From Candidatus Endomicrobiellum agilis (GTDB lineage Bacteria; Elusimicrobiota; Endomicrobiia; Endomicrobiales; Endomicrobiaceae): a DNA stretch of 64,000 nt. The notes beneath the pieces are model-generated. The model was not told the DNA's origin, ran no database searches, and was given only the letters and a program-made list of their open reading frames with translations. Location: assembly GCA_020328155.1 (NCBI GenBank), contig JAIXMX010000004.1, positions 1-64,000 of the forward strand. The letters are read 5' to 3'. Both the position numbers and the translations under genes were made by a program. Positions within the stretch are counted from its first letter, which is position 1. Each line of letters begins with the position of its first letter. This document shows positions 36,295 to 42,706 of the stretch, piece by piece.

Positions 36295-38604
36295 ATGTCA
36301 TTTGACAAAAAAGAAAAATTGATTTCAGATGACAAGAAAGAAAAATTAATTTTAGAAAATAAAGCTAATTTTGGGAAAAATGCACTTACTGTTCTTCAAA
36401 AAAGGTATTTGAAGAAAGATGAAAATGGTAACGTGGTTGAAAAACCTGAAGATTTATTTTATAGAGTTGCCGAAAATATTGCCCATGCAGACAAAATTTA
36501 TGATAAAAATGCAGATGTGGGTGCATTGATAAGAGAGTTTTACCTTGTAATGTCTTCTTGCGATTTTTTGCCCAATTCGCCTACTTTAATGAATGCAGGC
36601 AGACACTTACAGCAGCTTTCAGCCTGTTTTGTCCTGCCGATAGATGATTCGATAGATTCGATTTTTGAAACGTTGAAAAATACTGCTCTTATACATAAAT
36701 CTGGCGGTGGCACAGGCTTCTCATTTTCTAAACTGCGACCTAAAAAGGATATGGTAAAAACCACGAACGGTATTTCTTCGGGACCTGTATCTTTTATGCA
36801 GGTTTTCAATGCCGCTACAGAAGCTATTAAACAGGGTGGCACAAGACGAGGGGCAAATATGGGGATATTGAGAATAGATCATCCCGATATTCTGGATTTT
36901 GTAGCCTGCAAAGATAAAAGCGATAGTTTAAATAACTTTAATATATCCGTTGCAGTTACGGAAGAGTTTATGGATGCTTTGGAAAATAGGAAAAGTTATA
37001 ATCTTTACAATCCGCGAAATGGCGCGATAACAGGTAAACTGGACGCAAATGAAGTTTTTAATAAGATGGTCAATCAGGCATGGAAAAACGGAGAACCAGG
37101 TATAGTTTTTATTGACAGAATAAACTATAAAAACCCTACTCCTGCGATAGGTCAAATAGAATCTACAAATCCCTGCGGAGAACAGCCGCTTCTTCCTTAT
37201 GAATCCTGTAATTTGGGTTCGATAAATCTTGGACACTTTATAAAATCCGGTGATATCGACTGGGATAAACTCGAAAAAACAGTAAAAACTGCTGTTCATT
37301 TTCTTGACAATGTTATAGATATGAATAGTTATCCTATAGAAGAAATTGGCAAGATTACCCGCTCTAACAGAAAAATAGGACTTGGAGTTATGGGTTGGGC
37401 AGATTTGCTTTTGTATTTAGGCATGCCTTACGGGTCTAACGATTCTTTAATGCTTGCTGAAAAACTTATGAGTTTTATTCAGTCAAAATCCCACGAAACT
37501 TCCAAGGAGATTGCATTTAAAAGAGGAGCTTTCCCGAACTTTAAACAAAGTATATACGCAAATGAAGATCCTGTAAGAAATGCAACGACGACTACAATTG
37601 CTCCAACTGGAACAATCGGTATAATAGCTTCGGCTTCCGGCGGCATTGAGCCGATATTTGCGCTTGTTTATAAAAGAACTCAATGTCTTGACAATGAAGA
37701 TATGTATGAAGTGAATCCGTACTTTGAGAAACTTGCGAAAGAAAATGGTTTTTATTCGGTGAAGCTTATGGCTAAAATAGCGGAAAAAGGGAGTGTCCGC
37801 GGGCTTAAAGAAGTTCCTGAAAAAATTAGGAAAATTTTTGTGACTTCGTATGATATTACTCCGAAAGACCATATAAAAATGCAGGCAGCTTTCCAGAAAT
37901 TTACGGATAATGCCGTGTCAAAGACTGTGAATTTTCCTAGCTCAGCCACAAAAGAAGATGTAAAGGAAGCTTATATTTGTTCATATAAAACCGGATGTAA
38001 GGGAGTAACTGTTTACCGCGATGGAAGCAGAGACGTACAGGTATTAAATCTTGCGAATAAAAAATTGCATGAGAATAAGCCGAGACCTCGCCCTAAGAAG
38101 ACAACCGGTTTTACATTCCTTATGCATACCGGCTGCGGTAAAATGTATGTTACTGTAAATGAAGATGACGGAGGAATATGCGAAGTGTTTACGCAACTTG
38201 GTAAATCTGGAGGATGTACTTCGTCGCAGTCTGAAGCGATAAGTCGTTTGATTTCTTTGGCTTTGCGTTCAGGCGTTAATCAAAATGAAATTATAAAACA
38301 ATTAAAAGGCATAAGATGTCCTTCGCCGACTCTCACGGAAGGCGGAGCGATTTTATCGTGTGCAGATGCTATTGCGAGAGCTTTAGAAGCGTATAACAAA
38401 GAAAAAATATTACCTGCGCTTTTTGCGAGAGATATGCCCATTGCGGAACCTTATACGTCAGAAGATATAAAAGAACACTGTACCTCCGATCCAAGTGGTA
38501 ATTTGTCAGGTGCATGCCCTCAGTGTCCGGAATGTGGCGAGATGTTGATTTTTGCTGAAGGTTGTGTTATTTGCCGTGAATGCGGGTACTCTAAGTGCTT
38601 TTAG
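36295..38604 (+). CDS. nrdJ: Adenosylcobalamin-dependent (class II) ribonucleotide reductase
   Basis: Reduces ribonucleotides to deoxyribonucleotides using a radical made from adenosylcobalamin. It is 769 residues. LSACFVLPIDDSID has the first redox Cys, GGGTGFSFSKLRP follows, NPCGEQPLLPYESCNLGSINL (about residue 290) has the catalytic N-C-G-E set, and PTGTIGIIASASGGIEP (about 435) is typical. The C-terminal third has a TSCPD-type region and a cysteine tail, CPQCPECGE ... CRECGYSKC. No nrdA/B or nrdD is in the window. It should depend on the B12 salvage cluster at 54.3-59.5 kb. Confidence 0.95.
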   Translation: MSFDKKEKLISDDKKEKLILENKANFGKNALTVLQKRYLKKDENGNVVEKPEDLFYRVAENIAHADKIYDKNADVGALIREFYLVMSSCDFLPNSPTLMNAGRHLQQLSACFVLPIDDSIDSIFETLKNTALIHKSGGGTGFSFSKLRPKKDMVKTTNGISSGPVSFMQVFNAATEAIKQGGTRRGANMGILRIDHPDILDFVACKDKSDSLNNFNISVAVTEEFMDALENRKSYNLYNPRNGAITGKLDANEVFNKMVNQAWKNGEPGIVFIDRINYKNPTPAIGQIESTNPCGEQPLLPYESCNLGSINLGHFIKSGDIDWDKLEKTVKTAVHFLDNVIDMNSYPIEEIGKITRSNRKIGLGVMGWADLLLYLGMPYGSNDSLMLAEKLMSFIQSKSHETSKEIAFKRGAFPNFKQSIYANEDPVRNATTTTIAPTGTIGIIASASGGIEPIFALVYKRTQCLDNEDMYEVNPYFEKLAKENGFYSVKLMAKIAEKGSVRGLKEVPEKIRKIFVTSYDITPKDHIKMQAAFQKFTDNAVSKTVNFPSSATKEDVKEAYICSYKTGCKGVTVYRDGSRDVQVLNLANKKLHENKPRPRPKKTTGFTFLMHTGCGKMYVTVNEDDGGICEVFTQLGKSGGCTSSQSEAISRLISLALRSGVNQNEIIKQLKGIRCPSPTLTEGGAILSCADAIARALEAYNKEKILPALFARDMPIAEPYTSEDIKEHCTSDPSGNLSGACPQCPECGEMLIFAEGCVICRECGYSKCF

Positions 38605-38760
38605 TTCTTTAATTTAGATTTTGAGTTTATGATAATATTATCTATTTGTCTTATAGTATTTATTTGAAAAGTAAGTGCAAATATTTTTGTTAAAGATTAA
38701 AAGCAATTTTTACAGATGGTGAAAAATAAATAATTAGATTTTGTTATTATAAATATAAAA

Positions 38761-39350
38761 TTGATTGACAACAAGTACAAGCAAGCTTTGGCATACTATG
38801 CTCTTTTCCAGTCGTCTATTATTAAAAGACCATATAATTTAATTTACTCCATAGAAAAAAATCTTTACGTGAAGAATGCAGATGTTAAAAGAAGTTTTGG
38901 AAATAAAACTACTTGGGATGCACTATTTGATTTCTATTTAAAAAAATTTTATTCAAGAGGGTGATAAAGCTATATTTTCAAATAGTTAGAGTAATGTTGT
39001 TAATAACCCTGATGTCTTTAACTTAGAATTAAATGCCGATCCCTAGTTTATATTGACACTCCTTATGTTTCATCAAAATTTTTAGAGGGAATAGCTATGA
39101 TCAATGGGAAAATTTAGATGAAAAACGTATGATGTAGTGAGAAGATATGCAGAACGCTTTTGGTGCAATTTTTAGGAAATTCAAGAAGTCAATTAGAGTT
39201 CTTTCTTATTGGGACGATGGAATTCCAACGATTAATAATCTGATACAAATGTTGTCAAAATACAAAAGAAAAATAAGAGTTAATAAACTAGATTATAAAT
39301 ATGTTTTAAGCAATAGATTTTTAAAAGAAGTTTTGATCATTGCTCAATAA
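38761..39350 (+). pseudogene. Broken DNA adenine methylase (D12-like, DTPY motif)
   Basis: An N-terminal open frame (38761-38964) contains LFQSSIIKRPYNLIYS and KNADVKRSFGNKTTWD. The middle is broken, with EGDKAIFSN and NPDVFNLELNADP before a stop and, in the next register, SLVYIDTPYVSSKFLEGI at about 39040, the catalytic motif IV (DTPY for DPPY). The C-terminal frame (39147-39350) contains KSIRVLSYWDDGIPTINNLI and DYKYVLSNRFLKEVLIIA, matching the last third of this methylase group. At least two frame breaks and a stop. Intact members methylate adenine in R-M systems. Confidence 0.75.
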
Positions 39351-39424
39351 AAGGATGTCAATTTTAAAATAGTTCGTGCGTTGGTGGTATAAAAAACATT
39401 TTTGTAAGGAATGTTAGTAACGAT

Positions 39425-39803
39425 ATGACAGAAGAAGAATTTTTAAAATTCATTAATTCAACTATAGATAGATTAACAACTACATAAAGATATTTCGGTT
39501 AAATGTGGTGCGTGTAAGGATATGATTGATTTGTATGATGAGATAATATCTTATTGTTCTCAAATAAAAGATGCAATATCGAATGTAAAAGCGACAATTA
39601 AGATTAATTATTTAAATCAGTTCCATAGCGATATTAATCAAATTTTAGTTATTTTTCCGTATATAAATCAGCAAAGTTTGGGTTTTATTCAAGGCGATAA
39701 GAAGAAAATAAAACAACAAATAGAAAGTAATGCTAAATGCTTATTGGAACGATTAAAATTATTACAATTTAATCTTGATTTTTTTAAAAAGCTCAATTTT
39801 TAG
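39425..39803 (+). pseudogene. Frameshifted gene of unknown function in R-M island
   Basis: MTEEEFLKFINSTIDRLTTT runs from 39425 to a stop at 39485; one base of register shift joins it to KDISVKCGACKDMIDLYDEII and on to 39803, about 126 residues in all. The product is helical with no motif I recognise. Its position between a broken methylase and a broken ATPase suggests a defence accessory gene. The 3' end abuts the ATPase relic. Confidence 0.45.
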
Positions 39804-40902
39804 CAAAAATATTGCGGCAGTTGGAGCTAATGGCAGCGGTAAAACAACTCTTTCTAACTATGCAAAACGATATTTATCAAATACTGGAATTGTTATTTCA
39901 GTTCAAAAGATTCTATTAATGCCCACTTTTGATGCAATTTCTAGTATTGGTAGCACTTCTAAAAAATTGTAACAATCACAAAAATAAGATAAGCCATTTA
40001 AAAAAAACTTTTTCTGCAAATGAAAATATTATGTCTATACGTTATGTTTATGATGAATGTGCGATATTACTTGGCGATTTTCTTGCAGAAAGAAATGTGG
40101 CAAGAAATAAATTTTGTGATAGTATTCAAAAGGGAATTAAAGATAATGAGCCACCTCAGACCAATTTAGATAATGTGATGGAAATATGGAATTCTTTAAT
40201 CACACATAGAGTTCTTGAAGTTTATGGTGGCATCACTTTTACCTTGAAAATGAATTCTGGCGTTAATTATCCAACATACCAAATGAGTGATGTTGAGAAA
40301 GAAAAGATTGCATTTTTATTTACTTAACTCATGATTTAGATTTTGTAATAAGCAGAACATTCGCAAAAAAAGTTTGGATAAAGTCTTTTAATTTTCCTGA
40401 TAAATGAGTAACGGAAGATATTCCGTAAAATGAACTGCCGGAAGCATTGTTGCTTAGATTACTTGGCAGTAGAAAAAATAATTTATTTTGCGGAGGACAA
40501 AAAGGTAGTGTCGATGAGAAAATATATAATACTTTACTTCCTGGTTTTACAATAACTCCTGTCGAATTTTGCTTTAATGTTATCAGCTATACAAAAGTTT
40601 TTAATAAAGTCTCTAATTTAATTATGAAGGTTTTGGGTTTAATTGATTCAGATTATCACGAAACCGATAGATTAGAAAAGTTAAAATCAGATAATGTATT
40701 TTCATTTTCAACGTCCGAACCTGAAAATCTTTTTCTTGACGAATCGTTTTTAGATTTCTTGACGAAAAAATTATTAGTACATAATAAAAATGTTGTGCAA
40801 AATATTAAAGTTAAAGTTATGTCACAGCTAAGAAAAAATATGGAGTTACGAATATCTAATTATGTATCAATGAAAATTAATTATTATTTTACCTACATTT
40901 AA
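39775..40902 (+). pseudogene. Broken ATPase-DUF4435 (PARIS-like) gene
   Basis: The first frame has a Walker A, IAAVGANGSGKTTLSNY. The second (39929-40327) ends in YQMSDVEKEKIAFLF, like the signature YxMSDGEKVALYL. A third piece, YLTHDLDFVISRTFAKKVW, is the D-loop/H-region, but the Walker B segment that should lie between is missing, so there is an internal deletion. The last frame (40447-40902) is a DUF4435/Toprim-like domain: NLFCGGQKGS (usually LFVEGxxDS, so the acidic residue is now Gly), GLIDSDYH and SEPENLFLDE. ATPase plus DUF4435 is the architecture of AriA plus AriB of the PARIS anti-phage system. It is clearly dead. Confidence 0.65.
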
Positions 40903-40909
40903 TAAAAGG

Positions 40910-41735
40910 GAATATATATATAAAGATGTAGAGGATAATTATGACAAATTTACAAAAGAAATAGGAATTTCTGATTGAGTTAATCAGCGAAAAATTGAAT
41001 TAGAAAAAATAATAAAAGACAAAGATATAAAAAACTATACAACTTATATTTACGTCCCTGCCGTATTATAATGCCAGAATGTATTCTGATTATACGTCTT
41101 ATGATAGTTACTTAGAGAAAATGTGTAGTATTTTAAAACAGTGTAACCGTATATTGGAAGACGGACGTTTTATTATTATAAATGTTTCTCCAGTTATTAC
41201 AAAAAGACCCGGACGAGAATTTGAAAGCATTAGATATCCAATTCATTTTGATTTTCATAAAATTTTGGAAAACGCAGGTTTTTATTTCATAGATAAAATT
41301 ATATGGATTAAACCTGAATGTACGGTTCCAAATAGAGTCGCAGGTTATTTACAGACAGGAATGCCTTTGTCATACAAGCCTAATTGCATTACTGAAAGTT
41401 TATTAGTTTATAGGAAAAAAACGTCTTTTTTACTTGATAAAAATATAAAACTTTATTCAAGAACATTGGCAAATTCTATTGAAAAGACGGATACATCAAA
41501 TTGTTGGCATATATCTCCCAAGGCGGATAAAAAGCATCCCGCTGTTTTTCCTGAAGAATTATGTGAGAAAGTTTTAAAGTATTATTCTTTCAAGGGAGAT
41601 ATTGTTTTGGATCCTTTTGCAGGCTCTGGGACTTTTGGAAAAGTGTCGAAAAAAATGAAAATGGTTCCTGTGCTATGTGAAATTAATAAAGAGTATATAA
41701 AAAAACTTGAAGAGGAAGATTATGACGACCTTTGA
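40910..41735 (+). pseudogene. Broken DNA methyltransferase, SPPY-type (m4C-like)
   Basis: The frame from about 41033 reads TIQLIFTSLPYYNARMYSDYTSYDSYLEKM: motif IV of m4C-type enzymes is TSPPYYNAR, so the first Pro has become Leu. Before 41030 a frameshift joins KDKDIK and earlier pieces. The body is open to 41735, with IIWIKPECTVPN and motif I DPFAGSGTFGKV near the end (beta-class order). The visible ORF has its first ATG after the catalytic motif, so it cannot make an active enzyme. It overlaps the endonuclease gene by 14 bases. Confidence 0.75.
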
Positions 41736-42591
41736 AAAAGAAGTCATTGAAGATACTGTGAATAAATTGATTCAAGGCAATGATTATCGTAATGGAGTAG
41801 TAAATGCAATTAATATATTTTTCCTGGATTTTGCTATAGATTTTTTTAAGAAAATAATCAGTGCAAAGATTAAAGAGAAAAATATTAACTTAGCTTGGTA
41901 TAAAAAATATTTTATTGACTCAGATACTATTTCTTCCGATGATAAAGCAATATTTGCTGGTATGAATAAGAAAACGATTACTAACATATACGGAAGCGCA
42001 ACAAAGAAAATTGTTATAGATGTTGCTAATGCAAATTTTGAATATTTAACATGACTTATTTCTTTATTAGAAAAGGATGGTGAGTCAGAAGCAAACCTTA
42101 GTATAGAAATAAGTTATAAAGAAGTTTTAGTTAAACTGTCATTGACAGAAAGTTTGCTTGTTATAAATGCATTAGCTGCGAAAAAGATAGCAATGATGGG
42201 TGGGGCATGGAGTTCGATAGGTAAAAAAGTTGAAAAACCTTTATTGTTAAAACTATGTGAATTATGCGGAGTGCCAAAAAAATATATTGATGGTTCAATA
42301 TTTAAAAAAGACGGGACTTTGAATTTTGATAGGGAAGTTGATTTTAAACTTTGTAATAAAACTGGGAAAGAATATAGAGTGGAAGTTAAACTTATGGGTA
42401 AAGGAAATCCTGAAAGTGCGGATGTGATATACGCCAGAGATACTGATATATTTGTTGCGGATACTTTAAGTAAACAAAATAAGAATCAATTAAAATCTGA
42501 AGATATAAAATACGTTGAAATGAAAGACAATCCACATTGTGTCGATAACTTTAAAGTTTTATTGAAGGAATTAAATATTCCTTGTAAATAA
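41722..42591 (+). pseudogene. Type II restriction endonuclease gene interrupted by in-frame TGA
   Basis: The ATG at 41722 opens a frame that stops at a TGA at 42052-42054, yet continues in the same frame, fully open, to 42591. The downstream part holds the conserved core: GGAWSSIGKKVEKPLLLKLC, FDREVDFKL and YRVEVKLMGKGNPESADVIYARD, a PD-(D/E)XK arrangement (E..D ... EVK) reminiscent of CfrBI-like endonucleases that pair with m4C methylases. A single TGG-to-TGA change (Trp lost) would explain it. UGA is a stop elsewhere in the window, so this is probably inactive. Confidence 0.7.
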
Positions 42592-42706
42592 GGAAAGCAA
42601 ATAAAATAAATGTCAATTATTGATGATCTACAAGTTCAGACTGATGACCTTTGTCTTATTGTTATTCTGAACCTGTTTTAATAATGCTTACATGAAAGGT
42701 AATAAG

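Follow-up and report, generated by a model that had tools for sequence, protein, structure and literature searches.

A decayed fused PARIS gene beside a CfrBI-type restriction-modification system in Candidatus Endomicrobiellum agilis

Results

The window analysed here, a 64,000-nucleotide stretch of the Candidatus Endomicrobiellum agilis genome, carries an ariAB pseudogene, the decayed form of an AriA-AriB (PARIS) fusion that belongs to the suicide type of anti-phage defence genes, which confirms the original prediction of a PARIS-like relic joining an ATPase to DUF4435. Profile homology, the fusion of both domains in one gene, the lesions of the window copy, synteny, open-frame relatives and lesions that differ between genomes together make it highly probable that the locus is the dead remnant of a merged PARIS gene that was located together with a CfrBI-type restriction-modification (R-M) system between nrdJ and dcd in an ancestor of three Endomicrobium/Endomicrobiellum lineages. 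The host lineage is a symbiont of termite-gut flagellates. The relic is a new but dead representative of a known gene type and otherwise an ordinary pseudogene, its fusion having been described before. Its novelty is low because fused PARIS has already been described and R-M decay is known in these symbionts; the new points are modest, namely that different ATPase motifs were lost in parallel and that a fused PARIS gene can be nested, as in an operon, in a type II R-M locus.

Identity and extent of the pseudogene

The ariAB pseudogene spans positions 39425-41030 on the plus strand, where translation frame by frame (38600-42700) revealed a coding region broken by frameshifts, stop codons and deletions. 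Position 39425 is a start codon homologous to the start in relatives and similarity to AriAB runs to about 41030, so that the range initially predicted (39775-40902) was too short. The longest unedited piece, an ORF of 151 amino acids with a TTG start (40429-40899, plus strand), is the remaining open Toprim/DUF4435 (AriB-like) frame and matches the PADLOC families AriAB at E=1.5e-32 and AriB at 3.2e-4, while the joined frames match AriAB (PDLC02982) at E=3.4e-55. AriAB is the best PADLOC family for both, and the match lies far beyond chance. The same ORF matches PF14491 (DUF4435) at E=2e-4 with 21.6 bits, which is below the curated cut-off of 27 bits. The relic shares 48% identity with an intact congeneric copy (L003), and its locus is the only place in the source genome where DUF4435 was found. 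A search of plasmid DNA with the relic returned no match.

Lesions of the window copy

Alignment of the DNA with four relatives (the open-frame copies L003 and L004, and those of genomes G298 and G300) placed a 1-bp insertion near 39478 and a 2-bp loss near 39797 in the window ariAB, where a further single base pair is inserted near 39997, small indels occur near 40891 and 40914, and stop codons stand at 39970, 39985, 40405, 40426 and 40976. The Walker A motif, GANGSGKTT, is present in the frame segment 39757-39969, and the surrounding region NIAAVGANGSGKTT (39811-39850, plus strand) is kept in the window and deleted in the aligned G300 copy. Further downstream, YQMSD lies near 40281-40295 and YLTHDLDF at 40318-40341, and the predicted gap between them at the expected place of Walker B is real. 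Intact homologues read MSDGEKVALYLIAQVLQAP, GFIIIDEPEMYLHK and LWDRLEQERQDCIFIYLTHDLDF in succession, whereas the window passes from MSDVE directly to ERKDCIFIYLTHDLDF across the junction of a 127-bp deletion (40296/40297, plus strand), which removes Walker B and its surroundings relative to L003, L004, G298 and G300. Since 127 bp is not divisible by three, this deletion also shifts the frame. Walker A and B are both intact in L003 and L004.

In the Toprim part, the predicted glycine in place of an acidic residue was borne out: the motif codon at 40492-40494 (plus strand) is GGA in the window and GAA in the four aligned relatives, and the glutamate of LFCEG, invariant in 10 intact homologues, is replaced in a window motif that reads LFCGG. 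By motif, this lost glutamate would correspond to E26 of E. coli AriB, the E26A mutant of which has been compared with the wild type in a tRNA cleavage assay (PMC12409363). The Toprim DxD, here IDSD, is retained. The 3′ end of the gene is gone, a deletion at about 41030 having fused it to an N-terminally truncated methylase remnant. With Walker B deleted, the copy is a relic and not a functional member of PARIS, and with the frame, the 3′ end and the Toprim glutamate lost as well, the window gene can no longer encode a functional PARIS protein. Among the many lesions of this copy, the deletion of Walker B is in no way special. Assembly error could conceivably account for single indels in the window, but hardly for the whole set of lesions.

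Restriction-modification setting

The order of genes in the window is nrdJ, a methylase relic, the AriAB relic, a methylase, a CfrBI endonuclease and dcd, where nrdJ and dcd are what we take the flanking genes to be from their sequence. The R-M cluster in which the relic was predicted to lie is thus real. Directly downstream of ariAB is a type II N6/N4 DNA methyltransferase (41031-41735, plus strand; PF01555, E=7.9e-38; PADLOC MTase_II PDLC03276, E=2.2e-99) that has lost its N-terminal part, the match covering profile positions 162-396 of 404. It adjoins a CfrBI-type restriction endonuclease (41722-42591, plus strand; PADLOC REase_II PDLC03496, E=4e-66), the two halves of which match PF09516 at E=6.8e-8 and 2.8e-19, giving the pairing of an N4/N6 methylase with RE_CfrBI that characterises a CfrBI-type system, both genes being damaged. 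A single in-frame TGA (42052-42054) interrupts the otherwise open endonuclease gene. On the 5′ side of ariAB lies a second type II DNA methyltransferase, itself a relic (38734-39347, plus strand; joined frames, PADLOC MTase_II PDLC03261, E=3.8e-18), which is without counterpart in the G298 and G300 islands in a three-way island alignment.

The same island in related genomes

An island with the order nrdJ, AriAB, CfrBI-type methylase, CfrBI endonuclease and dcd also occurs in G298 (L026) and G300 (L027). Among 30 congeneric dcd loci, the island was present in three, nrdJ lay within about 400 bp of dcd in 21, and the other six were uninformative; in two congeners (L037 and L043) the nrdJ upstream of dcd looks deleted or decayed. 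In the AriAB gene of G300, 45 bp spanning Walker A are missing and stop codons are present; that of G298 has lost 46 bp in mid-gene, and the Toprim part is well preserved in both. None of the lesions listed for the window AriAB was seen in G298 or G300 when the alignment was inspected by eye, which suggests that the gene was intact in the common ancestor. The gene was lost through a different deletion in each of the three lineages (over Walker A, over Walker B or in mid-gene), and PARIS and R-M probably decayed separately in each. In a tree of the homologues the three relics cluster together (support 100/99), with the open-frame copies L016 and L017 adjacent at weaker support (83/88).

Open-frame relatives and a second locus

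Matches at E <= 1e-10 were found in five of 341 genomes of the phylum, all five in the genus Endomicrobium/Endomicrobiellum. Two of the copies are without internal stop codons, namely L003/L016 (636 amino acids, Endomicrobium sp. Po218_bin113) and L004/L017 (Ca. Endomicrobiellum porotermitis), with PADLOC AriAB E-values of 1e-113 for L003 and 6e-117 for L004. The intact relatives combine an ATPase of the AAA_15/AAA_21 kind with DUF4435, both above cut-off (PF13304, AAA_21, 55 bits; PF14491, 41.6 bits), whereas the window shows decayed pieces only.

The open-frame AriAB of two congeners sits at a locus other than nrdJ-dcd. Intact homologues beside R-M genes, for which the original prediction had suggested a search, exist in one of them (G005, locus L005), where a methylase precedes AriAB and a TdeIII endonuclease follows it: AriAB starts 3 bp past the methylase stop codon, and its end overlaps the endonuclease start by 14 bp. 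The endonuclease at the TdeIII position of G005 was not seen in G014. The AriAB frame of G014 (L006, 7758-9986) continues into gatC as a 742-amino-acid ORF with PF02686 at its end, inside which gatC has kept its own Met start.

Further AriAB homologues were found in Bacteroidota, with 38-57% identity to L017, and a plasmid protein search with a Flavobacterium homologue returned 24 records below 60% identity, many of them carrying a DUF4435 or AAA annotation. In the Bacteroidota neighbourhoods L018-L025 (ORFs inspected by eye, seven proteins scanned), several of which are on contigs that end near the AriAB gene, no type II methylase and endonuclease could be recognised as a pair next to it; the nesting of merged AriAB in R-M systems therefore does not look general. 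Individual neighbourhoods hold a type IIG restriction enzyme about 1 kb from AriAB (L021, 301-4011), a PDC-S02 candidate defence protein beside it (L020, 5751-6884) and, on a short contig, a SIR2 protein (L019).

Discussion

PARIS is believed to act as a guard of restriction that detects anti-restriction proteins. By analogy with the characterised two-gene PARIS, the ATPase half of the living form would hold the Toprim half inactive and would recognise a phage protein that knocks out restriction; we infer that the toxin half can somehow be freed from the fused protein, and once released this Toprim nuclease, probably directed at tRNA, would stop translation and abort the infection. PARIS would then act as a second line behind the adjoining R-M system, to which it may be functionally coupled, and the two would afterwards decay independently in each symbiont lineage, possibly under relaxed selection. 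PARIS activity of the fused AriAB of this clade is predicted from homology, and a role as guard of the adjoining R-M system is plausible. More tentatively, and in our view less likely than not, merged PARIS may have been a co-expressed guard within a type II R-M operon, arranged as in L005, and been lost with or before R-M; if true, it would be to type II R-M what PrrC is to type I loci. Within a single symbiont genus, two different type II R-M loci have a fused PARIS gene nested in them or next to them, and the three differing deletions at one of these form a small natural series on whether the guard is lost together with R-M or ahead of it.

It is very improbable that the relic derives from another ABC-ATPase/Toprim defence family, such as OLD, Gabija (GajA) or Septu/retron PtuA, rather than from PARIS. 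A fold search with an AlphaFold model of an intact relative, itself of moderate quality (pLDDT 76, pTM 0.54), was topped by ABC-ATPase structures from PtuA, a retron, Rad50 and GajAB, with AriA absent among the 50 matches listed, and by profile the ATPase part matches the Retron Ec83 ATPase at 3e-8. These matches, however, reflect the common ABC ATPase core only, and a search led by generic ABC ATPases has no bearing on PARIS identity. Over their whole length the intact relatives match AriAB best and by a wide margin (1e-113 or better), and their C-terminal part is DUF4435, the domain that defines AriB, rather than the OLD-family or unrelated ATPases without DUF4435 that the original prediction had named as its possible refutation; OLD, Gabija and Septu were rejected on this basis. 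Folding the Toprim part from its sequence alone gave no usable model (pLDDT 37). We give just as little credence to the idea that ORF 40429-40899, or a shortened protein, continues to be produced and has taken on a new role, for example in inhibition or regulation, with no ATPase activity of its own. The survival of a 151-amino-acid ORF with a TTG start and the well-kept Toprim part in G298 and G300 would fit such a role, against which stand the missing motif glutamate, the deleted 3′ part and the broken state of other island genes.

Decay of a merged PARIS gene, the reading we prefer, places the relic in a known class. PARIS was described from the outset as an ATPase plus DUF4435, encoded either by a cassette of two genes or by one fused gene, with the anti-restriction protein Ocr as trigger (PMC9122126), and so fusion as such is no novelty. 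Like the intact relatives, merged PARIS (AriAB; PADLOC PDLC02982) has an ABC-type ATPase half and a DUF4435/Toprim half in one protein; its ATPase half has Walker A, an MSDGEK signature, the Walker B DEPEM and a THD switch, and it is the best profile match. The window copy, unlike merged PARIS, is without Walker B, the Toprim glutamate and an open frame. Two-gene PARIS of E. coli B185 (AriA and AriB) has the identical domain pair and differs in its separate genes and in having been described from P4-like satellites; its AriB is a Toprim tRNase (PMC12409363). Sequence similarity of the ATPase to the solved AriA is marginal (E=0.01).

The PrrC and RloC anticodon nucleases are encoded within type I R-M loci or close to them. 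They resemble the present system in being ATPase-linked tRNase genes nested with R-M and triggered when restriction is countered, but they differ in having a HEPN-like nuclease fold, not Toprim, and in their association with type I rather than type II R-M. In Ca. Endomicrobium trichonymphae, going by the titles of papers of 2016 by Izawa and by Zheng, R-M islands reportedly move and defence systems decay, the latter being the topic of the Izawa paper, which is cited in PMC8809381, and on that comparison of titles its decaying R-M systems resemble the decayed R-M/PARIS island of the window. Across the family, R-M systems are rare and randomly distributed, whereas they are abundant in Em. trichonymphae (PMC11257099).
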